Position numbers and translations under genes: made by a program. 64,000 nucleotides of DNA, from contig NC_087390.1 in NCBI RefSeq assembly GCF_963675165.1, positions 2,680,001 to 2,744,000 of the forward strand, written 5' to 3'. Position 1 is the stretch's first letter. Each line of letters starts with the position of its first letter. Shown piece by piece: positions 15,173-64,000 of this stretch. Under the pieces are notes generated by a model. It saw only the letters and a program-made list of their open reading frames with translations, did no database searches and had not been told where the DNA came from. Source of the stretch: Halichondria panicea. Lineage: Eukaryota > Porifera > Demospongiae > Suberitida > Halichondriidae.

Positions 15173-18100
15173 CTAGTTGAGAAATGGGTCCTTGAGAAGA
15201 GAGCTTGCTGAAGGCCGTTCCTCTGGATCCACTAATAGACACTTGCTGGCAAATTCATAGGCTCCTCTTAACCATCTTATCCTTGCATTGAGCTTGTGGA
15301 GCTGCAGAAATCAAAATCACACAATAATTATAATGAACCTCAATAATTACTTCAGTCAATATTCCAGGTTGCCCACCAAGTCAATTAATTAACTATCCAG
15401 TCACTCCAGTATATGCTTCAATACAATAAATTATAACTACAAGGAAACTTGGATAAGAGAAATAGGCACATACACATAATTATAATTATTGCTGGTATGG
15501 TACTGCACACTGGATCGATACAAGCTCAGAATTCAAAGCAAAAAATAATGAAAGTACCACGGATGCCGAAAAATGTAGGCAATGAAGCACGAGGGGAAAT
15601 GGTGAAAAGAGTGGGAAATGGTAAACCATGCTGTTGCTAAAAAGGATGCCAAAAGTTCAAAGTTTATAATTATTAATTGCTGCAAGCTCTTACTTGCACT
15701 TCATTTATCACTGAATAGTGCATTCTACACACGCAGATAAAGACCGTATGCGTAGCCAAGGCATAATGATGCACAAAGCAAACAATGGGCTACATACACA
15801 TTGCAATGCTCACCTTGAGCAACTTGAGTACTGTACTTTCATCCACCCTCCACACACTGGGGCTTTTGAGTCTCCCATCACTGACCCCCAGGCTCTGATG
15901 GTAGTAGAGTAACAGTGTGGACATAGCCCGCTGACTGTACGGAGTGTCTGTGCTCATCATGAGTCGCATTGAGAGAATACCAAAGCTGTAGATGTCCGCC
16001 TTCGTGGAGAGGGGTGGGGAGAATGCATCAGGGGAATTTGCAATCATGAGCATACTGGATTCAGGCGATCGGAACCCATTTGTACCCACCGGAACAATCT
16101 CATACTGAGGGGGGGGGACGGACAAGGACAGGATTAACATTTGGTATGGTATTGGAGAATACAATGAAACAATATGCAATGTAAAAAAGAGTATGACAAA
16201 AAGAGCTTATACTATAATTATAATAAGTATTGCAATAGGTCCATTATGTATAGTACTACAAAATGATGAATATAGGCTGGTCTTAAGAGGTCAGTAATCT
16301 TACCTGTTTAGTTTGTGAGCGTGATGAGTGAGTGGTGGTGGAAGGTATTTGAGAAGATGAGTCCAATTCTAGCGCAGCATCAAAATCACAGATTACCACC
16401 TACGAGACGAAAATAATCAACAAAATTAAGTATTTCAAGCTACACGAATTCAGTACAAGGACATTTTTAGCTGCAGTTTCAGTGGAAAAATTAGCCGTAC
16501 CCGTTATTTGAACGTGCAGTCGTCAAGGCAGTAATTGCACGTCGTTAATGACGACGTGCAATTACTGTCTTGACGACGTGCAATTAATTACTGATACGCG
16601 ATTAATCACTGTACGAATCACAGTGAATAATAGGACAACATGCGATTATACCCTAAATAATATAAAAGTATGAAACCACACACCTACACACCTGTACGAA
16701 TCACAGTGAATAATAGGACAACATGCGATTATACCCTAAATAATATTGATAATTATGTGTAAAAGTGTGAAACCACACACCTACACACCACTCACTTGAT
16801 ACTTGACATCACACGAGCACTGAACAGGGTTATCACAATTACAGAAGAACTTTATGAGCACGTTGCTGGCCTTCACATCCCTATGGATGCATCGACGGCT
16901 GTTGTGCAAATAATTCAATCCTTGAAGCACCTGTGAAAGAATGTATTTGACATTTCCGACAGCAACACCCATTGCTCGAGGGTTGTTATGATGACGCTTA
17001 TGGAAATCGTGCAGACTAAGTTCTTCTTTATCGGTCACCAATCTAGCCATATCGCCACTGAGTTTGGGCAGGTAGTGATAAACAAAAAATCTCCTTTTGC
17101 TTTCTTTGTGTTCTTCACCCCACACATACGCTAACAGGGGGACTATGTTTTTGTGGCGGATTTTCGTAATGATTGCATACTCTTTGCTGCGATAACTAGT
17201 CTTCTTTACTGCCAAAGCCAATCCATTCACATTTTCGCTGAATATTGATCCATTGCCACCCTTGCGAATAAGAGTGTGTTGGGTTGGTAGGGGCTGTATT
17301 CGATCAGATGGTATCTTGTCCGGAATGGAAGTATATAGTACAGTGCCTTGTCTGAGATTAGCCTGTCGTCTTGACGTTTGTTGTGCCTCACCAACAGCTT
17401 GTTCAGCGGTAAAGGTGGGTGCTGGAGAGAGGTGACTAGTTAGTCTTGGAAGTTCACGTTGAAAGTGCTGTTGAGCAAGTGGTCCAGCAAGAGCTTTAGT
17501 ATCAGAGTGAGGTCGTCTATCAGGAGGAGATGGTATAGAGTATTGCTGAGCATCTTCTTGAATGTAGTCGGACACTTGCTCTCCCACTGTTGGTAGTACA
17601 GGGACAAGGTCGAGTGAGGGTGGTTGAAGTGGTTGAAGGAAAGGCTTGGGAATAGCATGCTGAGCGCGTCCAGTTAGCATCTTTGGAACTATAGGGTAGG
17701 AAGGTAGTACTAACTCAGTATGTTTCTCGTCCACTAGCAGAGTGTCTACAGAACGCATCACGGCCTCAAGCTCACTTACTTCACGAAGATTTTCACAAGT
17801 ATTTTCAAGGGCGAGTTTCAAAGACAAATCTTGCGACAATACAATAGAAAACTGTTCATTTGTTATTGGAACAAAACCTCTTATTTTCCGAAGTAATGGT
17901 CGAAGCATGATGACAACTTCCATCGATGCACCGTTATGTCTCTCAAAGTTGTGCCAATCAGTACTAGACATTGATTCAGGAGGAATTTTGGAGAAATCTT
18001 TGACAGGTCCATTAAGAAAATGGATTGGCTGTAGTGAAAAAAACTGTACGTTAGCTGTAAACGACTCCTTAAAGCATTCACAAGTGAGAAAGCTCACATA

Positions 18101-19879
18101 CGACACGTTACTCGAGTCTCCTTTCAGTTTCACTTCCGAATATATAGGCAGTATTCGTTGGAAAATTTCTTTAACAGCTTGACAACAATACTGATGAAAT
18201 TTCTCAGCTTTTTGTTCATCTGATCCTTGAGATGAACTTGAGGCTTTTTCTACTTCTATGTATACTTTGTCAGCCTCAGCAATAGTCCTTTTGGGGCAGA
18301 TACCTATCTTATCAGTGAGTGAGTCATCAATTATTATTAAAATTGTTGCCTTCTCTGTTTGCTCTTTCAGAATATTTGCCAGGCCAACATTAGTAGACCT
18401 GCAACTGAGTATCCAATTAGTACAACCAGAATTGCTCATTAGTATTGAGATAGGCTGAATACAAGAATCAAATTCACTTTGGGGAACATAGAAATCGAGA
18501 ATTGCAGGATATTTTGTTGCCACTTTCCGAATTAAGCTCTTTTCTTGTGCTTCGACAATGCACTCGATTAGTGCATAGCGATGTTCTGGCTCAGTGTATA
18601 ACTTAAGCGATTCGACAAGAATATCAACAACCGAATTCATCATCAACTTAGTTGGATTATACAGCGTAATGTGGGACAAGTAATCTTCCCCAATCAATCC
18701 AAAGAAAAACTTAAGCCACGATTTGAATCCACAAACAAACAAAGGAAGACAATTTTTGTAGAGAAAATACAACTGATTCAGTGGTGGCTGTTGGTACAAA
18801 TGGAATGCAGCAAGAAACTGTGCCATGACCAAGGATACAAACTGGTAGCCATGTTGTTCATCTTTGTACAGCACACAGAACCGAAAAATATCTTTGCTCG
18901 TAGAAGTCATGTTGAGACCAAACACAGATAAAAACTGAAGTGATTCATCCAAATTTGTGCATTTATCACCTGTTAACAAATGCTGCATTGCAAATTCACA
19001 AACCACTTTGAACGAGGATTTAGCTGAGTCGGGCAGTTGCTCCAACTGCAAACCAGAAACTAGCGCTTCTTTTTCTTCGGAATCTAACTCGCGAAATATA
19101 ACACTCGTTAAAAATTTGTGAAGGCATTCGGACAATGCTTTTGGCCGCTCAAATTTTTGACCTTTGAACAAATTCCCGATAGTAGAACAAATAAACGGAT
19201 TTCTGCACATATCTAATAGCTTATTTTGTCGTAAGTAGGACACGATTTTCTCAGAATGCCTAGAATTAACAAGAAGGTAATTTCCAAATCCTTCAAGTGT
19301 GAGACCTTTAACATGCAATAGATTATCAATCAGACATATTGATTTCACATTTTCAATGAAATTAGGTCGAGTAACAATCAAAATCTTAGACTCTGGTAAA
19401 CATTTATGCTCTAAGATTCGCTTAACAAGGGAATTTGGCTTCAAGTATTGATCAGTAAAATTCTCCACGATTATCAGAATTCCATTGCCACGGGAATGTG
19501 CCACATCATTCATGGGTTCCTGCCATTCAATGTCTTCCCAATTGTCTACGTGTTCACAAATAGCCTCGTCAAGCAAATTAAAAAACAGCACAGTGTCAAT
19601 TGTATGCAAAACTGGTGTCTTTTGAAGATCATTTAGAAATTGCTTAATCACCGTGCTTTTTCCGATACCAGGTGGCCCGACCAAGACAGACAAAGATTTG
19701 GGTTTGCTATTATCTAAAAATTTGCAAAGATCAGGCAATTTCCTATCGTTGACTAGTATTTCATTTTTATTCGAAGCTTCTTCAAAAGTTGCAGTTAATT
19801 TCCCACTGCGAAATACAGCAAAGGAATTTTGTACCTCATCAGTATCACCAGTGACATTGCAAAGAGTGTGTTTGCTCAT
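15173..19879 (-). CDS. NACHT (NLR-like) - protein kinase fusion protein, gene A
   Basis: Four exons: 19879-16796, 16399-16304, 16104-15814 and 15301-15173, all joined in phase 0 at GT-AG sites, giving about 1199 aa. TAA lies directly before the ATG. Residues 68-76 are a Walker A loop (GPPGIGKST), 134-140 a Walker B-like strand (ILIIVEN), 164-172 a sensor strand (SKILIVTRP) and 197-233 NACHT-type GFGNYL and NPFIC motifs. Around 430-480 an NLR-like EAQ helix and one leucine-rich-like segment appear. A 350-residue linker (Pro/Gln-rich near 720-850) follows. The kinase runs from about 872 to the end: GGNGS loop, AVKK lysine (892), alpha-C Glu, HRDVKASN (999-1006), CDFD in place of DFG, SPES, DIYSFG and PEERPS. 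Most catalytic residues are present, so activity is plausible. No N-terminal CARD, Death or DED domain is seen; an upstream exon cannot be excluded. The role as an innate immune sensor with a kinase effector is inference. Confidence 0.85.
16516..16580. mobile_element. Perfect hairpin MITE in gene A intron 1
   Basis: CGTCAAGGCAGTAATTGCAC faces GTGCAATTACTGTCTTGACG around a GTCGTTAATGAC centre. Absent from the matching introns of copies B and C. Confidence 0.7.
16604..16790. repeat. Tandem duplication in gene A intron 1
   Basis: Two direct copies of about 88 bp beginning CTGTACGAATCACAGTGAAT and ending in an ACCACACACCTACACACC run. The second copy ends at the exon 1 donor. Not present in copies B or C. 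Confidence 0.8.
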
Positions 19880-24382: not shown

Positions 24383-24562
24383 TGTTATAGTTGCAAACTG
24401 TGTCTACTGTATACTTATGATGTAATGTCTGTGTTCGAATATAATTATTCTAGTTAGTTCTCTTCTAGAATACTCCTTGAGTTATCGGTTTTGTATATAA
24501 ATACCTGTCATGAATCAGAGTTCTTTATTATTCAATTATTCATTTCCATCTACGATATTACA
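24383..24562 (+). repeat. Gypsy 5' LTR (candidate)
   Basis: A TG...CA segment of 180 bp with a TATATAAATA box near 24493, directly followed by TGGCGACGAGG (from 24565), a primer-binding-type sequence typical of Ty3/gypsy elements. No matching 3' LTR was found downstream. Confidence 0.6.
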
Positions 24563-24599
24563 ACTGGCGACGAGGATTGTGTGGATTAACAAATTCTAC

Positions 24600-25810
24600 G
24601 ATGGCAACTGCTCACATAGGAACTCTCATTCAACCCAACGGACGAACATATCACCTCCTACCTGGAATGTGTCCAACTTTTCTTTGCTGCAAATTCAGTT
24701 AGCCAAATCCCGAAGAATTGTTTGCAACCTTAGCAAATGGGGAACAATTGGATCTGTCTCAAGCCTATCTCCAGCTTCCGCTGGACGAGTCCTCGATACT
24801 CATCAAGGCCTGTACCAATACACTCTCTTACTATTTGGTATCGCATTGGCTCCAGCTATTTTTCAAAGGCTGATGGAGACAATTTTGCAAGGAATCCCTG
24901 TCGCGTATGCTACATTAACGACATTCTGGAAGAAAAACACCTCAGAAGTTTGAATCAAGTGTTTTCAAAATTGACGGATCACGGCTTTCGACTCAAGAGA
25001 GGAAAATGCAAATTTATGGCAAAGTCGGTGGAGTATCTCGGTCACAAAATTGACAAAGACGAAATTAGTGCACTATCAAACAAAGTGGATGCCATTGTCA
25101 ATGCTCCTCACCCAATCAACGTAGAATTACTACAGAAAGTTTATTTGAAATCTGGCCACTATACTTCATCCTCTCAACCAGCCACTGCAAGCCAACCACA
25201 AGTGGAATTGGACTGCAGAATGCGTGGCAGCCTTTCAGATGGCCAAAGACCACCTAGTATCAGCTGATGTGCTCACCCACTACAACCCAGACCTACCCAT
25301 TTGCATGGCCGCTGATGCTTCAGCTTATGGAATTGGAGCCGTGATATCTCATGTGTTACCGGATGGAAGTGAAAAGCCGATATCATTCGCTTCTCGAACA
25401 CTCACCCTGACTGAAAAGAATTATGCACAACTGGAGAAAGAAGCACTGTCCCTCGTGTTCGGAGTAAAAAAGTTTCACCAATACCTCTATGGAAGGAAAT
25501 TTACCCTCATTACCGACCACAAGCCCTTAACGGCCATATTTGGATCCAAGAAGGGCATACCCACTCTAGCAGCAGCACGTCTACAAAGATGGGCCCTACT
25601 TCTGTCGACATATGACTACAAAATACAGTTCAAGCCCACCAAAGCCCACCAAATCTCACAGCAATGCAGATGGACTCTCAAGACTTCCTCTACCAGTTCT
25701 CGATTCGGACAATGGAGGAGAAGCTGTCAGTCTCTTTAACGTGTTTCAGGTGCAGTCTCTGCATGCCTGTAACATTTCAACAAGCGCAATAAGCTACCAA
25801 ACGTGACCCT
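24600..25810 (+). pseudogene. Ty3/gypsy pol remnant (reverse transcriptase - RNase H)
   Basis: RT fragments are seen as DLSQAYLQLPLDES (about 24756-24800), LYQYTLLLFGIALAP-like sequence, a degraded catalytic box reading YINDILE where Y-x-DD is expected, then VEYLGHKI. RNase H follows: MAADASAYGIGAV, LEKEALSLVFG and LITDHKPLTAIFG keep the catalytic acidic residues. At least two frameshifts (about 24900 and 25130) separate the pieces. Gag, protease and integrase are not visible; the region just after the LTR runs almost directly into RT. Confidence 0.85.
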
Positions 25811-47425: not shown

Positions 47426-48949
47426 GTGAGCATTGTCGAAACTCCTGCATTATTTTAAAGTACATGCAACTACTGTATATACCCTCACAAAATTGTGGTA
47501 TTCTATATTCTCTAGATTACAGGCACTGTAGGTAGACAGGACGTCACATCCAATGTGAACTCTTTTTATTTTCATTTATTCAAGTACAATAATTATAACA
47601 TATACCGCTAAGTACAATCAATTGCCAAGTACAAATCAATTAATCTATTATGTTTTCTTATTAATTTTACGCTCTTCAGTCAAGTATATACAAATCTATT
47701 ATGTTTCTAATTTTACGCTCTTCATCATTTATATTCGGAATCAAGATCTGAATTAACTGTGACACGATGGTTGACCAAATTTGGGAGAGGGTCTTTCAAA
47801 AAAGTATACGTTGCTTGGTAGGGGGTGATTTTATTCTTAATTGCAATCAATCAAAATCAGATCGATGTTAGATGCTTTGCCATGTCCTCAGAAACAAGCA
47901 CATTCGAATCGTTTGTATCTCTTTATTCTGCACATGTGACAATTAAGGAATGGATCCTTGAGAAGAGAGCTTGCTGATGGCCGTTCCTCTGGATCCACTA
48001 ATAGACACTTGCTGGCAAATTCATAGGCTCCTCTTAACCATCTCATCCTTGCATTGAGCTTGTGGAGCTGCAGAAATCAAGATCACACAATAATGAACCT
48101 CAATAATTACTTCAGTCAATATTCCAGGTTGCCCACTAATAAATAATTAACTATACGGTATGCAATTATTTCAGTCAATATTCCAGGTTGCCCACTAATA
48201 AAATAATTAACTATCCAGTGTATGCTTCAATACAAATTATCACAACTACAAGGAAACTTGGAAGAGAAATAGGCACACACACATAATTATAATTATTGTT
48301 GGTATGGTATAGTACTGCACACTGGATCGATACAAGCTCAGACTTCAGAGCAAAAAACTAGAGCACTGAAGTGCAAATCCTCGGCTGGTGACATGATTAT
48401 AAAGAAACCAGAATAGGGATATAATGCAGTGCATGTAGTGATGTATGACTGAGCTGTTTAGCACAGCAACTCAGGAGCAATAAAACTAAACCAGACTGGA
48501 GGCATGCTGAAACATTGAGAACAGAGTTTTAGTGGTACATGAGGTGAACTAGGCTAGTCTAGGATCACAGCAAAGAAACCTGGAGTCTCAGAGAAGTATG
48601 ACTCTTGGATAGAGTAGGATCCCAGAGTCAGCTAACAGACAACAAACAAGTCACAATTCTAGCTTTCTATTGTAGTGACCCTTTTCCACTGTTTTTGGTA
48701 CTGGATCACTTCAGCTGTAAATACGGAGGTTGCCTCGAATAAAGGCCGCGTGTAGTTAGCTAGCTAGCTGCCAACGTGCAAGTTAGTTTTTGCTCGCTTT
48801 TATTCGACAACAAAGCTCAAACATCGAAATCTACCATTAACTTACTGTGTGAAGGCTATCCAAGCTATAAACGCAGTGCTGTGGCAGCCAGGTGAGCAGA
48901 CCCAGAAATTACCAAACCAAACGACTACTATACCCGTGGCCGCCCACGC

Positions 48950-49290
48950 GCGCCTTGGGTATATCAATTCAGTCCCCACTACCCCTCATGCGGGCTATGT
49001 CGGGGTTTAGTGGGGATTTGATTTACATCAATATCAACTGCCCCACCCCAGGGGGCCTGGTTGAAATCAAATCCCCACTTCTCCTCCCATACCCCCACTT
49101 AACAACCCCGGGATTTGACTACACGCGTGCATGTGCTATACTTTTCCGGATATTACTGCTATAAGTTTGTATATTGAGGAAGTCAAATTCCCCACCCTAT
49201 CCCGCACCTCAGGGTTACTTGCTGAATCAAATCCCACTATGTCCCCACTATGCCCCGCAAGGGGGATAGTGGGGACTGACATTGATAGGT
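48950..49290. mobile_element. C-rich TIR element inside copy B
   Basis: Left GGGTATATCAATTCAGTCCC and right, in complement, TTATGCACCTATCAATGTCA then GTCCCC. Internal CCCCACTA/TAGTGGGG stretches recur. Ends resemble those at 29874 and 31520. Confidence 0.5.
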
Positions 49291-50730
49291 GCATAATGAA
49301 AGCACCACGGGTGCTGATGCCTCAGTGTAGGCAATGAAGCTACATGCTCAGCTATACATACACTGTGAATATACTTTACTACATATATACGGGGAAATGG
49401 TGAAAAGAGTGGGAAATGGTACACCATGCTGTTGCTAAAAATGAAGCCAAAAGTTCAAAATTCGTAATTATTAATGGCTGCAAGCTCTTACTTGCACTAC
49501 ACACGCAGATAAAGACCGTATGCGCAACAGAGGCACAAAGCAACCAATGGGCTACATACACATTGCAATGCTCACCTTGAGCAACTTCAGTACTGTACTT
49601 TCTTCCACCCTCCACACACTGGGGCTTTTGAGTCTCCCCTCACTGACCCCCAGGCTCTGATGGTAATATAACAACAGTGTGGACATAGCCCGCTGACTGT
49701 ACGGAGTGTCCGTGCTCATCATGAGTCGCATTGAGAGAATACCAAAGCTGTAGATGTCCGCCTTAGTGGAGAGGGGTGGAGAGAACGCATCAGGGGAATT
49801 AGCAATCATGAGTATACTGGATTCAGGCGATCGGAACCCATTTGTACCCACCGGAACAATCTCGTACTGGGGGGGGGGGGCAGGGACAGATCAACACGTG
49901 ATATGGTATTGGAGAATACAATGAAACAATACATAATGCAAAAAAGAGTATGACAAAAAGAGAACAATGCTATACTCTAATAAGTATAATTATCGCAATA
50001 GGCCCATTATGTACAGTACTCATTAGCAAAATGATGAATATAGGCTGATTTTAAGATGTCAGTATTCTTACCTGTTTAGCTTGTGAGCGTGATGAGTGAG
50101 TGGTGGTGGGAGGTATTCGAGAAGATGAGTCCAATTCTAGCGCAGCATCGAAGTCACAGATGACCACCTACAGACGTACAGAGAGATGATTAATCAACAA
50201 AATTAAGTATTTTAAGGTACATGAATTAAGTATTCAGTACAAGTACATCAAATGTACAGGTGATTGTGGATCCAGATTTATCATGCACGCTGATTATAAG
50301 GTTGAACAATAAAGGCAAAGCAATTATACCCTAAATTGATAATTATGTGTAAAAGTGTGAAACCACACACACCCACACACACCAAGACCACACCACTCAC
50401 TTGATACTTGACATCACACGAGCATTGAACAGGATTATCACAATTACAGAAGAACTTTATGAGCACGTTGCTGGCCTTCACATTCCTATGGATGCATTGA
50501 TGATTGTCGTGCAAATAATTCAATCCTTGAAGCACTTGTAAGAGAATGTATTTGACGTTTCCGACAGCAACACCCATTGCTCGAGGGTTTTTATGATGAC
50601 GTTTATGGAAATCGTGCAGACTAAGTTCTTCTTTATCGGTCACCAATCTAGCCATATCACCACTGAGTTTGGGCAGGTAGTGATAAACAAAAAATCTCCT
50701 TTTGCTTTCTTTGTGTTCTTTATCCCAAAC

Positions 50731-51005
50731 CATAGATTGAAGAGTTAAGAGGGATAGAAAACGGTTGGTATCTCGAGTAACATCCGCGCTATGCTGCGGT
50801 TTAATCGAGGCCATCACAACAATATCTATTTCTACACTCAGTGCATAATAAACTACAAGTAACTGTGCTTAGTCCTCCGTACAACTCACTTATATTTCAA
50901 GGTCTATACCTATTGTAGTAGTCATAACCAGCACGCTTACACGTTATATGTTCCAATAGCTCTAAAACAGCCTTGGGAACATATAACATTACTCTTCAAT
51001 CTATG
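50731..51005. mobile_element. 275-bp TIR insertion in the kinase exon of copy B
   Basis: CATAGATTGAAGAGT at the left and its complement at the right, flanked by CCCAAAC (50724-50730, 51006-51012). Removing it and one TSD copy restores alignment to genes A and C, so the insertion site is clear. Confidence 0.85.
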
Positions 51006-51600
51006 CCCAAACATACGCCGGGGGACTATGTTTTTGTGGCGGATTTTCGTAATGATTGCGTACTCTTTGCTGCGATAACTATAGTCTTCTTTACTGCCAA
51101 AGCCAATCCATTCACATTCTTGATAAATATCGATCCATTGCCACCCTTGCGAATAAGAGTGTGTTAGGTTGGTAGTGGTTGTATTCTATCAGATGGTAGA
51201 CTCTATCTTGTCAGGAACAGATGTATACAGTACTAGTACAGTGCCTTGTCTAAGTTTAGTCTGTCGTCTTGATGATCGATATGATCGATTGTTGCGCCTC
51301 ACTAACAGCTTGTTCAGCAGTAAAGGTGTGTACAAATGCTCCATTTCATGGACCATGAGACGGCTAATCTATAGATCTATAAATATGGAAGTGCCCCCTC
51401 CAGTTTGTGCAGGGGAGAGATTTAATCGTGAATGCTCATAAAAAATGTTGCCGTTGTGAAGAGTGCACAAGTGGTCCAACAGTATCAATAAGAGCAGTTG
51501 CTTGAGGATAGATTCGTGCAACAGGAGGGGGTGAATAAGTAGTGGAGTCTTGTTGAGCATGCCATCTCCTTGAATGCAATCAGACACAGAAACAGGGTCT

Positions 51601-53860: not shown

Positions 53861-56362
53861 TTAATTACCACAGTACTCTTCTTGTATCTTGTCAGCAAGG
53901 TTCCTATGATCCAGATGCCTTATAGCGTCCACCAAATCAGCCACACAACACTCACTGTTTTCTAGCCAATACCTCAGCATGTCAGAAAAGTACTGACTCA
54001 CGTTACTTTGCTCAATTTTTAAACTGTCAATGAAATCAGAGCTTATTCCCAGTGCTAGTGCAAACTGTTGCCATTGAGCTGTGCAACAGCCTAGAATTCG
54101 GAAAAGGCCACGTACTGTGTACACAAGATCTGATCGGGGTGGGGAGAGGGTATGATTTTGAGAGATTGTAAACAAAATTAATGGTCCTGTAAAAAGTAGA
54201 TGTATATAGCTAACACAATCATTATTACTGAGCTAAAACTGTGAAACAGATGCTCAAGAGCATTCACCTCGTGCGTTGAGCTATACATTGCATGCGCACA
54301 GCGATAAAATGGATATAATAACTTTTTACCATAATAACCTTATTATAATATTATGGGAATGATCGTGAATCTATATATTATAAAGCACATATAGATCGAT
54401 TGAAAAACAGTGATTTTGTCGCCTTCGAAGACAAGTTTTAATTTTTAACCTATTATTTTCAACTAGATCTATATACTGGTCTCATTAGCAATTAAAGCAG
54501 TCCATGAGAATGTCTAAAACAGCTCATCAATTTGTGCACACATTACACACCACGGCGTAAAATTTACAAAAGCTCTGCCAATCCTTATACAACCTATATA
54601 TATACTGCATGGTTATGAATTTCTTGTACTTTTACACTGATAATAACGACAATGCCTGTACTAATAATTCTCAACTTACTGATTTTTCCACTCTCAATTT
54701 CTCTAGAGAGGTTGCCCTTGGCTATGGCCGGAAATCTCAGAGCCTCAATGATGACCCATGTACACAGTCTCCTGTCATCAGTGCCAGTGTGTGCGTGGGT
54801 GGAGAGGAATCGCTCAAGTACTCGAGTGAAACAGTTCTCAGGAGTGGCCACTCGGCTCTCAATGCAGTCGAGCTCTTCAGGGGGCACTCCAAGATGCACT
54901 CCTAGTGATCTCCATTGCGCAGCCAGCGGTCTCAAGTCTTTTGCCAAATGTCTCAAATCTGAATAATGACCAAATATAATGCAACGGAAAAAACATGGCT
55001 AAGTTTTTCAATGGATTACTTATTGTTAATACCCTTTCTTACCAACTTTAAGTTTAAGCACTTTAAGTTTAAGCAGTTCATCTTCCATAGCTCGCCTTAG
55101 TTTGGAGGGCAATGTAACTTGAAGTGTTTGTAAAAAGTGACCATCCAGAGAAGCAGTTTTCTCCGTTATATAGCTTCTTGTCTTCTCCTAGTGACTTCAG
55201 GGATCTTCCAAATGAATGTTCCGTCGCAACTGGCGGTTTGAAGTGTTTTGTAATACCAAAAGTCTATCTTGTAGTTGGATAATTGCTGACTCAGCTTTCA
55301 CCACAGCCTCTGTTACTAGTTGTAGTCGTGAATGCACCTCAGATCGAATTTTGGTTATTTCCGACTGCAGAGCGTCTGTTTTGTTGTCTGAGGCAATTTG
55401 ATGCTCCATCAGAGATTGCTTTATGGCCAGTAGTTGATTGTGATATGCGGGGTACTCCTTTGCATGCTTCGTTAGTTCCTTGATGGTACCCTGCAGCAGA
55501 GTAATAATTATATGCGAGTACTATTATCATAGCAAATACCTTGTAGGTGCACCCCAAGTCTTTGTAGTCGCAGTCTCTTACTTGGTGAGTGCACACTGTT
55601 TTAGTATGCTTGAGCATCTGTGGGTGGAGTGGGTAAAGATTATTACGTAACCAAGAGTAGATAAGAGTAAGAGTGTTGAACTGCTAGTAACAGCAATTTC
55701 CTGCTCCTGCGTCATCACTTGATAGTAATCGGTACTATGTTAGCAACACTTCCCAGAAACTGCACATGCTGTGCGCAGTTCAGTGCTACAAACCACAGAC
55801 ACCACAGTTTACTTAACAGCACTCATTAATTGAATAGTGACGACAGTGATGACGCATGTCAAGGCAAATGCGGTTCCACGATTACTACAGCAGTTCAACA
55901 CTCTTACTCTTATCTACTCTTGACGTAACTATAGATCCCACTTGTGTGTGTTTAGCAGGGAATTATGAGCCATAATTAATCTCATAGTTTCCCAGGGCTT
56001 GAGGGTATAAAGTACAAGTATTGTTATCAGGGTGTCATACAGGATTTTGAAGTAGAGGGAGGAATTAAGAAAAGTAACCAGAAAAGTTTGCTAAAAAAGG
56101 TCAACTATATTATTTCAATACCCTGCATAGTATGTAAAATTGCCAGATATGGACACACACAACACACTATCGTATTCCTCGCTTGCGCATGTGCACCATA
56201 GCATAAAAACATTGACCCCGCACAGAAGCCATTTTCTTTTGTATTGCTCCCTCCCTCCACATTTGCATGTGAGTGTACGATTTGATTGCCATAAAATCGG
56301 AGTATCCACTAATGACTCACCTCTCTCCTAGGCAACCTCTCTCCACACCCATTGGGGCAGTA
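53861..56362 (-). CDS. TRAF zinc finger - coiled coil - double Death domain protein (5' incomplete)
   Basis: Exons on the minus strand: 56362-56321 (CPNGCGERLPRRE), 55617-55540 (HTKTVCTHQVRDCDYKDLGC), 55490-55257 (GTIKELTKHAKEYPAY, then a Glu/Gln/Leu coiled coil), 55187-55043, 54958-54680 (Death domain 1: LAAQWRSLGVHLGVPPEEL) and 54186-53861 (Death domain 2: AQWQQFALALGISSDFIDSL, ending EEYCGN). Splice phases agree across every junction (0, 0, 0, 1, 1), supporting one transcript of at least 365 codons. A 69-bp intron (55256-55188) must be removed to avoid two in-frame stops. The RING and first zinc fingers are missing; homology stops inside the 56321 exon at a join with an EFTUD2 scrap. Death domains recruit partners by homotypic contact and TRAF fingers belong to signalling adaptors, so an adaptor role is inferred. 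It may be a decaying 5'-truncated gene. Confidence 0.7.
55642..55930. mobile_element. About 290-bp TIR MITE in the TRAF-Death intron
   Basis: TACGTAACCAAGAGTAGATA and AGAGTGTTGAACTGCT face their complement at 55888-55930. One end recurs at about 5885-5925. Confidence 0.7.
56030..56105. repeat. Half-copy of the CAGGGTGTCATACAGG MITE
   Basis: Matches one arm of the element at 56825-56994 (CAGGGTGTCATACAGGATTT, TTGCTAAAAAAGGTCAACT). Confidence 0.65.
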
Positions 56363-59473: not shown

Positions 59474-62400
59474 TCAATTAAGGAATGGATCCTTGAGAAG
59501 AGAGCTTGCTGATGGCCGTTCCTCTGGATTCACTAATAGACACTTGCTGGCAAATTCATAGGCTCCTCTTAACCATCTCATCCTTGCATTGAGCTTGTGG
59601 AGCTGCAGAAATCAAGATCACACAATAATTATAATGAACCTCAACAGTCAATATTCCAGGTTGCCCACCAAGTCAATTAATTAACTATCCAGTGCATGCT
59701 TCAATACAAATTATCACAACTACAAGGAAACTTGCAAGAGAAATAGGCACACACACATAATTATAATTATTGCTGGTATGGTATAGTACTGCACACTGGA
59801 TCGATACAAGCTCAGAATTCAGAGCAAAAAATAATGAAAGACCATGGGTGCCGATGCCTCAGTGTAGGCAATGAAGCTATACATGCTATACATACACTGT
59901 GAACATTTACTACATAATTATATACATTTGCATGAGGGGAAATGGTGAAAAAAGTGGGAAATGGTAAACCATGCTGTTGCTAAAAAGGATGCCAAAAGTT
60001 CAAAGTTCGAAATCATTAATGGCTGCAAGCTCTTACTTGCACTTCATTTATCACTGAGCAATGCATTCTACACACGCAGATAAAGACCGTATGCGCAACT
60101 GAGGCATAATAATGCACAAAGCAACCAATGGGCTAAATACACATTGCAATGCTCACCTTGAGCAACTTCAGTACTGTACTTTCTTCCACCCTCCACACAC
60201 TGGGGCTTTTGAGTCTCCCTTCACTGACCCCCAGGCTCTGATGGTAATATAATAACAGTGTGGACATAGCCCGCTGACTGTACGGAGTGTCAGTGCTCAT
60301 CATGAGTCGCATTGAGAGAATACCAAAGCTGTAGATGTCTGCCTTAGTAGAGAGGGGTGGAGAGAACGCATCAGGGGAATTAGCAATCATGAGCATACTG
60401 GATTCAGGCGATCGGAACCCATTTGTACCCACCGGAACAATCTCGTACTGGGGGGGGGGGGGGGGGCAGGGAGAGATCAACATGTGATATGGTATTGGAG
60501 AATACAATGAAACAATACAAAGAGTATGACAAAAAGAGAACAATGCTATACTCATAATAAGTATATCGCAATAGGCCCATTATGTACAGTACTCATTAGC
60601 AAAATGATGAATATAGGCTGGTCTTAAGAGGTCAGTAATCTTACCTGTTTAGCTTGTGAGCGTGATGAGTGAGTGGTGGTGGGAGGTATTCGAGAAGATG
60701 AGTCCAATTCTAGCGCAGCATCGAAGTCACATATGACCACCTACAGACGTACAGAGAGATGATTAATCAACAAAATTAAGGTACACAAATTCAGTATTCA
60801 GTACAAGTACATCAAATGTACAGGTGATTGTGGATCCAGATTTATCATGCACGCTGATTATAGAAGGTTGAACAATAAGGCAAAGCAATTATATCCTAAA
60901 TTGATAATTATGTGTAAAAGTGTGAAACCACACACACCCACACACACACACACCAAGACCACACTGGCCACTCACTTGATACTTGACATCACATGAGCAT
61001 TGAACAGGGTTATCACAATTACAGAAGAACTTTATGAGCACGTTGCTGGCCTTCACATCCCTATGGATGCATCGATGATTGTCGTGCAAATAATGTAATC
61101 CTTCAAGCACTTGTGAGAGAATGTATTTGACATTTCCGACGGCAACACCCATTGCTCGAGGGTTATTATGATGACGCTTGTGGAAATCGTGCAAACTAAG
61201 TTCTTCTTTATCGGTCACCAATCTAGCCATATCGCCACTAAGCTTGGGCAGGTAGTGATAAACAAAAAATCTCCTTTTGCTTTCTTTGTGTTCTTCACCC
61301 CACACATACGCTAACAGGGGGACTATGTTTTTGTGGCGAATTTTCGTAATGATTGCGTACTCTTTGCTGCGATAACTGGTCTTCTTTACTGCCAAAGCCA
61401 ATCCATTCACATTCTCGCTGAATATCGATCCATTGCCACCCTTGCGAATAAGAGTGTGTTGGGTTGGTAGGGGCTGTATTCGATCAGATGGTATCTTGTC
61501 AGGAACTGAAGTATATAGTACAGTGCCTTGTCTGAGATTAGCCTGTCGTCTTGACGATTGTTGAGCCTCACCAACAGCTTGTTCAGCAGTAAAGGTGTGT
61601 ACAAATGCTCCATGCGATGGCTGTATGGAGGTAGCCCCTCCAGTTTGCGCAAGAGAGTGGTAAGGATTCATGGGTACATGTCCGTACGGGGATACAGAGG
61701 GAAGCAATTGGTGATCTACGCTACCCATGTTGAGATTAGCAACACCGGGAGTTTGAATGCTATCCGATCTTTGAGACCCTTCTTGCAAGGTATTAGATAA
61801 ACCCTCGGGTAGTATTGAGTCAACTCTAGGAACTTCAGCTGGGTGAACAAAAGGCTTAGGGAGGGCGTGCTGGGCTCGGCCAGTTAGCATCTTCGGAACG
61901 ACTTGTAATGACGGGAGGATCATTTGTGTGTTATCTCGAGTGGCATCAAAATTATCCATGCAACGTACCGTTGCTACACATTCTTCAATTTTACTGAAAT
62001 TAGCGTTTGCGCTGCTATTCTCTTGATAAAATTCCACAGACAAATCGTTGGATAAAATTAGATTGAATTTTTCATTCGTCAACGGAACCACACCCTTTAT
62101 TCTTTCAGGTAAAGGACGAAGCATTAAGACCACCTCCACGGTTCCACCATTGTGTTTCTCGGCATTGTGACGATCTGACATAGACATCGATTCGAGTGGT
62201 ACATTTGATGTATTTTTTTTCGGTCCATCCAGATAGTGAATAGGTATTAATGGATATAATTGCACACACTTCGAAAACGATTCTTTGAAGCATTCGCACG
62301 TTAAGAAACTAACATACGACACATTGCTAGAATCACCTTTCAATTTAACAGCTGAGTACAGAGGGAACACTCGTTGCAAAATTTCACGGACAGCACGACA

Positions 62401-63990
62401 TACCAACTGATTTAATTTCTCCATTGATTCTTGGGGAGTTCGCTCGGACGTTTGATCACTTTCTCTGTATAGCCTATCGAGTTCAGCTGAGTTTCTTTTC
62501 GGAGTAATATCAAGTCGATCAATAACAGAGTCATCGTAGATCACCACAATTGATACGCTTTCAACTTTAGCTTTCAAAGTAAGTGCTAATTGCTTGTTTC
62601 TTGGTGAGGTCGTGATTATCCAATTTGCCATTCCAGAGTTGCTGATAATTGATACTACAGAATCAACACAAGAATCGAAAATTCCGATAGACATCGAGAA
62701 TGTTAGAACAAGCGAGTGTTTAGAGGATAGTTTTCTAAATATACTTTTTTCTTGAGCCTCGTTTAAAGATCTGATTAAAGCACACCGATATTTCGAGTTG
62801 GTGTTCAGTTTAAGGCTATCGACTAGCACATCGACAACTGAATTCATCATCAATTTTGTAGGATTAACAAATGCTGTTTGTGATGAAGTGTAAATATCAC
62901 TAGTTAGACCAAAGAAAAATGTTAGCCAATGGGTGTAACCGTTCTCGAACAATTTTAAAGAATTCTTAAACAAAAACGTGAGCTGATTGACTGGTGGTAG
63001 TTTGCGCAGATAAAAGCCGGCTAAAAATTCTGTTACCAGCGGATGTATAAATTGGTATGCATTGCAATGAAATGTGCTGCCAGTAGCAAGGTCCACTAGC
63101 CCAAATCTGAAGCAATCATTTCGTGACAATTTCGAAAGTTTGAGACAGAAGGAGGAAAAGAATTGTGACGATTCTTCGTAGCTAGCGCATTTACAGCCTA
63201 TCAGTAAATGCTCCATAGCTAAAGAACAATTTGCTTCAAAAGCAGCTTCTACAGTTTCTGGTAGTTTTTCTAAGCGTAATTTCCCGTCATGCAAAGCAGC
63301 TCTCTCGTCAGCATCTAACGCATGCTCAATCAGACCACATACTAGCTTATACACTAAATCTGTCATTGTCTTTGGCGTTTGGATTGTTATACTACCAATC
63401 GCTTCTACTAGAATTAAACAAGCAAGTGGGTTTTTAACGTCCCCTAGTTGATTTTGTTGCAGACAAGATAAAGAAGAATGGTCAGATCCTAATAAAGGCC
63501 TTTGCCTATTGTCTGAAGCACGTCTAGTGGTAATGTACTTTATCATTCCTTGTTTGGAGAAGCCTTGCAAGTTATAATGGTGTCGAATTTTAGCTATAGA
63601 CATAAGTTCATCTACTTGGCAAGGATTGCATAATATCAACATGGTTGCATCTGGTAGAACTTTCTTGTTTAGAAGGGCTCTAATGATCGAATTGGGCGAA
63701 AGTTTCTCTAGAAAGTCTGAGACACACCGGTGTAGTGCTAGTACTATCAACCACTTGTGACCACTAGCATTCTCGAGGCTGTAATCTTCTATACACTTCG
63801 TTAGCTTGAGCAAGTCATTAAGTTTTTCAATCGTGCAAATTTTATCACTGTCCGGTTTATTTAAGAGCAATATAGAAAAAAAAGTTCCAAAACGGTTACA
63901 AATAACGTTTTCCATGAATGTTGATTTACCAGTGCCTTTAGTACCTGACAGTAAAATAGCGGAGCCATGTTTATTATTAAACAAGGCCAT
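59474..63990 (-). CDS. NACHT-like - protein kinase fusion protein, gene C (5' end possibly outside window)
   Basis: Exons 63990-60976, 60740-60645, 60447-60157 and 59602-59474, all phase 0; at least 1176 aa. The first Met in the window is only 15 residues before the Walker A loop (GTKGTGKST, 16-24), whereas gene A has 67, and the frame stays open to the window edge, so the true start is probably upstream. The Walker B-like strand (KWLIVLALHRC) has no acidic residue, and the sensor strand ends CNP instead of TRP, so ATP hydrolysis may be lost. The NLR-type EAQ helix and one leucine-rich-like segment are kept. The linker (PKMLTGRAQHALPKPF, then FTAEQAVGEAQ) and kinase (GGNGS, AVKK, HRDVKASN, CDFD, SPES, DIYSFG, PEERPS) are almost identical to gene A. 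The function as a signalling receptor is inference. Confidence 0.85.
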
Positions 63991-64000
63991 GCTACTTGAA

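Follow-up and report, generated by a model that had tools for sequence, protein, structure and literature searches.

Receptors of the animal NLR type (nucleotide-binding, leucine-rich repeat (LRR) receptors) are generally thought to recruit separate signaling proteins through death-fold domains; can such a receptor instead carry its own enzymatic output in the same chain? The question is raised by a gene, here termed K1, in a 64,000-nucleotide stretch of the genome of the sponge Halichondria panicea (NC_087390.1, positions 2,680,001–2,744,000 of the forward strand; this entire stretch is the window, and its positions are used below), for which an original prediction had proposed a NACHT NTPase and a nearly complete protein kinase in one spliced open reading frame (ORF). 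That arrangement is borne out by a four-exon structure, and the same exon plan recurs in four copies: hence, for the predicted products of K1 and its paralogs K2–K4, a NACHT–kinase architecture is close to certain. On balance, we favor the view that they are animal NLR-derived receptors that would have lost most of their LRRs and would use a C-terminal kinase as a built-in output.

K1 lies on the minus strand (15173–19879, as do all of its features given below), with a coding sequence of 3600 nt closed by a single terminal stop, a product of 1199 amino acids (aa), GT–AG boundaries at all three introns and a TAA immediately 5' of its ATG. Exon 1 (16796–19879) alone supplies 1028 uninterrupted codons that run from the NACHT module through an LRR-like stub, a middle region and a linker into the kinase N-lobe and its HRD catalytic loop; none of 2000 single-base shuffles of this exon was free of stops. 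Searching with K1 recovered three more long copies on contig C14 (K2, K4 and K3) at 53% identity, along with a kinase fragment, K5, and the four intact genes and this degraded copy are contained inside about 110 kb. K1–K4 share the four-exon plan and the GT–AG splice sites, and their proteins measure 1199, 1253, 1258 and 1276 aa, respectively, counted for K2–K4 from starts that we chose (K2 and K3 have further in-frame ATGs upstream).

These observations bear on the plainest alternative, namely that the model wrongly joins an adjoining NACHT gene and kinase gene that produce separate transcripts. The K genes are known here from genome sequence, which leaves some room for such an error and returns below as a point for another alternative and against our own view. 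However, the NACHT–kinase junction falls inside the 1028-codon exon, and no AATAAA or ATTAAA hexamer occurs from residue 37 to the final stop of K1, hence none between the two domains; the first AATAAA starts 12 nt beyond that stop. Further, K1 and K2–K4 constitute two lineages with about 50% identity along much of the receptor half, and both remain open across a linker of variable length. Since this open layout is shared by two lineages that have diverged, we regard this kind of artefact as very unlikely.

What kind of module, then, is the receptor half? The Pfam NACHT match of K1 (residues 63–196; 19292–19693) attains 23.2 bits in exon 1 and 24.1 bits in the 5' part of that exon, just under the cut-off of 26.7 bits, and K3 (25.3 bits) and K4 (25.6 bits) also fall below it. 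The profile search by which the original prediction was to be judged is, therefore, divided: K1 itself falls short, but K2 passes with 45.3 bits, and K1 matches both L006, a NACHT–LRR gene of the same genome and the best match among the NACHT genes there (E = 3.7e-21), and NLRP3 in a PDB sequence search (E = 1.3e-4). An AlphaFold model of K1, based on an alignment of 25 rows (four from the K genes, five of the 15 canonical loci in the search with K1 and 16 from further NACHT loci), is usable at residues ~40–540 and poor beyond 560 (mean predicted local distance difference test score 51.6); among 983 PDB chains re-aligned out of the Foldseek top 1000, it is closest to NLRP3 (Z 22.6 over 409 residues, 3.8 Å), with NOD2 at 21.9 and NLRC4 lower at 19.4. 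Helical domain 1 (HD1), the winged helix (WHD) and HD2 succeed the NACHT domain both in this model and in the alignment with the 21 other NACHT rows. The K1 core is predicted to have an NLR-type fold, with the nucleotide-binding domain, HD1, WHD and HD2 spanning residues ~45–456 (18512–19747). In a tree of the NACHT module from all 25 rows, K1–K4 are united with a support of 100/100 and sit on a long branch.

Most of the motifs named at the outset can be placed in the alignment: Walker A (GPPGIGKS, residue 68) is kept in all four copies, the sensor Arg corresponds to R171, and NPFIC includes P228, the Pro that is invariant in the alignment. The supposed Walker B-like strand is present but departs from the consensus in every copy, least so in K2; with its Walker B degenerate, the NACHT part more probably serves to switch upon nucleotide binding than to hydrolyze ATP rapidly. 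GFGNYL, which had been taken for an NLR motif, begins at G197 in the helix past the invariant G192, and hence is not itself the conserved motif. As to variation among the copies, K1 and K2 retain the sensor Arg, which is replaced by Asn in K3 and K4; K2–K4 retain the winged-helix His, and K1 has Ser in its place.

It had further been claimed that the kinase replaces the LRRs, with at most one leucine-rich-like segment remaining. The replacement is mostly right, in that there is no C-terminal LRR array beyond a stub and no LRR family is among the Pfam matches listed for K1–K4; but this stub and a family-specific region of ~220 aa still precede the kinase. The count of one segment is too low: residues ~457–520 (18320–18511) comprise about three beta–alpha units, whose strands alternate with helices in both AlphaFold models and which line up with the LRR-like units that come first in the genome's other NACHT genes. 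As the LRR is only a stub, we file K1–K4 as NLR-derived rather than as bona fide NLRs. The succeeding middle region (residues ~521–742; 17654–18319) appears private to the family, a search with residues 459–750 of K1 having matched the four K genes alone (four matches, five candidates). No fold or family was recognized in it by two AlphaFold jobs, which were of low confidence, or by sequence and profile searches, whose matches were only weak, such as FANCI_S3 (18.4 bits against a cut-off of 25, in one of the four members) and katanin (E = 0.11). It is joined to the kinase by a Pro/Gln-rich linker (residues ~743–861; 17297–17653), within which the identity among paralogs jumps at about residue 820 (~17420).

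At the other end of the protein, no CARD, Death, PYD or other N-terminal adaptor family is among the Pfam matches listed for exon 1 of K1–K4. Among ORFs of at least 75 aa upstream of K2, K3 and K4 (L054–L056, one strand), only the K starts matched the K proteins, in a comparison made with these proteins and not with Pfam. The genome lists, in which 150 of 503 Death candidates were scored, place no CARD in the K cluster and a single Death match at 53879–54082, which does not adjoin any of K1–K4. According to a survey of sponge NLRs, NACHT–LRR genes without an N-terminal adaptor are classed as NLRX, so that an adaptor is not obligatory (PMC12909245).

Is the C-terminal domain a working kinase? 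The spliced K1 kinase matches Pkinase (PF00069) with 87.7 bits (E = 1.1e-24) against a cut-off of 31.7, so that the profile search foreseen for this half was clearly positive. The match covers positions 46–263 of the 263 in the profile; as the first 45 are unaligned, the glycine loop and the beta-3 Lys were assigned by motif. The motifs KGGNGS, LAVKK, KE-AIITKIRH, HRDVKASN, DFD, RSPE, ADIYSFG and ERPS are found in all four intact copies, and they furnish the catalytic set that was checked (glycine loop, beta-3 Lys, alpha-C Glu, HRD, DFG and APE), in which DFG reads DFD and APE reads SPE, the role of each residue being assigned from the sequence pattern. In K1, KGGNGS (residue 873), LAVKK (889), KEYAIITKIRH (899) and HRDVKASN (999) are encoded by the 3' part of exon 1 (16796–17296), DFD (1033) by exon 2 (16304–16399) together with a Ser/Thr-rich activation-loop segment (11 Ser/Thr in 32 residues), RSPE (1072) and ADIYSFG (1096) by exon 3 (15814–16104), and ERPS (1185), followed by the stop, by exon 4 (15173–15301). 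The kinases of K1–K4 are, thus, apparently active as predicted from these residues. The domain was not confidently modeled in K1, and hence its assignment rests on sequence. It could be placed in no kinase family: STE20-type kinases, BRI1 and others are mixed among the best 60 of 350 PDB sequence matches. A scan with NCBIfam gave matches below the cut-off only.

Outside the K genes, the nearest kinases, at contigs C3, C14 (2.29 Mb) and C13, plus a short one at C8, have 34–35% identity to it (30–40% in single exons for the main blocks), in a search run exon by exon by which a closer relative could be missed. Three of these places (L051–L053) share with the K kinases the DFD and a preceding Cys-rich stretch, have HSD or HGD where the K kinases have HRD, and appear to differ in their exon limits; we take them as non-fused, since no NACHT was seen in the 4.5–5 kb around each, a region viewed without a Pfam scan. 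The donor of the K kinase may have been related to them. Upstream of L051 there is also a VQQSPVPRFEATS-like stretch in repeated form, and L053 has a similar single one.

This distance from other kinases is central to a rival explanation, in which the kinase is an integrated decoy: a bait resembling a host kinase attacked by pathogens, the modification of which triggers the NLR. The NLR–kinase fusions of plants and fungi have been so interpreted (PMC4759884; PMC12258605), and the intact catalytic residues of the K kinases are as compatible with a bait as with an enzyme. However, the fungal baits reportedly show high similarity to a resident kinase (PMC12258605), whereas no close resemblance to a resident host kinase emerged from our exon-wise search; this low identity weakens the decoy explanation. 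Moreover, among the Pfam matches listed, there is no recognized N-terminal output domain that could signal in place of the kinase. We consider a decoy role unlikely, and continue with the kinase as the output of an NLR-derived receptor.

The history of the copies distinguishes the two halves. In windows along exon 1, K1 is 38–64% identical to K2–K4 up to residue 800, 72–75% at 801–850 and 91–97% from 851 onward. Synonymous divergence (dS) between K1 and either K2 or K3 falls likewise: it either exceeds 1.4 or is saturated in columns 76–900, 0.35–0.42 in 901–975 and 0.15–0.20 in 976–1125, with a nonsynonymous divergence of 0–0.03 in the kinase block of these two pairs. Introns 2 and 3 of K1 are also 86–93% identical to those of K2–K4, giving 86–97% for the entire kinase block of exons and both introns; hence, exchange, and not selection at the protein level alone, has kept this block alike. 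Intron 1 of K1 (16400–16795) is 65–67% identical to its counterparts across 210–220 aligned positions of its 396, the partial alignment being due to extra sequence in K1: it has 396 nt against 225–235 in K2–K4, and the palindrome and repeated segment inside it may represent a small mobile element. Between K2 and K4, dS is at least 1.75 in columns 1–300, 0.20–0.34 in 301–450 and 0–0.04 from 451 onward, a step that places a second boundary of apparent exchange within the NACHT module. K3 and K4 differ little over their whole length (dS 0–0.21). We read the pattern as a constant predicted catalytic output beneath varying nucleotide-binding heads. A more ambitious proposal, which we offer tentatively and with more doubt than confidence, is that of an animal immune-receptor system diversifying at two exchange boundaries, one between NACHT N-terminal halves and a shared middle, the other between diverged receptor halves and a homogenized kinase cassette.

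Need the system be immune at all? The NACHT domain could be an ATP-controlled oligomerization switch for a housekeeping or developmental kinase, a regulated scaffold to which the partly degenerate NACHT active site, the near-complete loss of the LRR sensor and the genomic provenance of the K genes all lend some weight. It has to be set against a genome with at least 102 NACHT matches scored (265 candidates), in which all ten other NACHT ORFs scanned (L006–L015 of L006–L020) exceed the NACHT cut-off and eight also exceed that of LRR_6, with no LRR match at E 0.001 in L009 and L013; and against a K locus that has undergone local duplication and sequence exchange and retains a degraded copy. Such features are common at immune loci. 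A non-immune scaffold, therefore, appears distinctly unlikely to us. The same genome has at least 148 Death matches (150 of 503 candidates scored) and 27 CARD matches, these domains being found in none of 14 control genomes, a repertoire in keeping with an animal.

Returning to an NLR-derived receptor with intrinsic kinase output, we infer for K1–K4 the following plausible mechanism. A signal sensed via the NACHT module, the stub or the middle region would alter the nucleotide state; the K protein would then self-associate through the NACHT module, and the adjacent kinase domains might trans-phosphorylate each other in their Ser/Thr-rich activation loops. No CARD, Death or PYD adaptor would then be needed for the active kinases to launch a response, and the putative shortcut past a separate RIPK-type kinase, which the original prediction had envisaged, remains plausible. 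Several points weigh against this view, besides the genomic provenance already mentioned. The NACHT match is under the Pfam cut-off in K1, K3 and K4, and the Ser for the winged-helix His in K1 and the Asn for the sensor Arg in K3 and K4 may weaken nucleotide control. The kinases carry DFD for DFG, and the Pkinase match stops short of the glycine loop; the middle region, linker and kinase of K1 come out with low confidence in the AlphaFold models. Finally, there are only two diverged lineages, K1 and K2–K4, and as the kinase copies are alike partly by exchange, their agreement in all four does not amount to four independent tests. With regard to the DFD, the same replacement is also found in the active MNK kinases.

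The remainder of the window includes further parts of the cluster. K3 (59477–64000, minus strand, read from L003; 1258 aa from the chosen start) has the same four exons, at 59477–59611, ~60154–60456, ~60633–60755 and from 60976 to past the end of the window. In K5 (approximately 47942–51368, minus strand), HRN stands in place of HRD and the N-lobe is broken, and no NACHT was recognized among the ORFs listed upstream of it. Between K5 and K3, ORFs at 53864–55683 (minus strand) code for a Death domain of 35.6 bits and an apparent coiled coil; another Death-like match and a TRAF-type zinc finger, the latter weak at 17 bits, are both below the cut-off. This looks like a separate signaling gene: its Death match (53879–54082) was tried and rejected as an upstream adaptor exon, being upstream of the degraded K5. 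Elsewhere, a dense array of Death-domain matches was observed on one contig (G000 C12:1.04–2.08 Mb). Upstream of K1, fragments of a reverse transcriptase and RNase H (24501–25739, plus strand; RT_RNaseH 118 bits) mark the remains of a retroelement.

How novel is this arrangement? The original prediction knew of no described family with this layout, which is too strong: NLR–kinase fusions are known in plants and fungi, so that the kind is already established, but we found no animal NACHT–kinase fusion in the published literature, searched also with exact phrases such as 'NACHT-kinase' and without its supplementary tables. None is found in the accessible parts of PMC11797021, PMC8242945 and PMC2575513, and none is named in that of the sponge survey, although the 64 Dysidea avara NACHT genes with other architectures in its supplement could include one (PMC12909245). 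In the plant and fungal literature, a kinase is the most abundant fusion of plant NLRs (161 proteins; PMC4759884), PKinase is among the listed fungal NLR domains (PMC4986451), and twelve fungal NLRs with PKinase, nine of them C-terminal, are suggested decoys for a CHK2-like kinase (PMC12258605). Each of the four copies combines a nucleotide-binding module and a kinase in one predicted polypeptide. Under the tentative proposal of two exchange boundaries, the K genes would constitute the first animal NLR type on record in which intrinsic kinase output replaces death-fold recruitment. A built-in kinase would mean that animals, like plants and fungi, evolved one-piece receptor-enzymes, and the K genes would offer a compact system in which to ask if NACHT self-association alone can activate a kinase.

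Against the backdrop of known systems, K1–K4 have in common with animal NLRs (NLRP3, NOD2, NLRC4 and the NACHT–LRR genes of the same genome) the NACHT–HD1–WHD–HD2 order and fold, the start of the LRRs and an organization in clustered multicopy genes; they differ in their mere LRR stub, C-terminal kinase and degenerate Walker B, and in that no CARD, Death or PYD is recognized. NOD1 and NOD2 have as their output a separate Ser/Thr kinase, RIPK2, recruited via CARDs; a kinase output is thus common to both, but in the K proteins it is part of the same chain. LRRK/ROCO proteins likewise combine a switch and a kinase in one chain, their switch being a GTPase–COR module where that of the K proteins is NACHT. 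'Novel Gene 3' of the sea anemone, with Pkinase, Death, TIR and Roc/COR, also joins a kinase to an immune-type animal protein, but, unlike for the K genes, no NACHT is named in the accessible part of its description (PMC5094078). Plant fusions resemble the K genes in placing an intact kinase in an NLR, either N- or C-terminally; they are plant-lineage NB-LRR receptors that, unlike the K genes, have LRRs (PMC4759884). The PKinase NLRs of the Sordariales come close in layout, with an NLR and a mostly C-terminal kinase, some of them in NACHT-named orthogroups; yet their kinase resembles the resident CHK2/PRD-4, whereas the nearest kinase found outside the K family has 34–35% identity to the K kinase, which and forms a block exchanged among the copies (PMC12258605).

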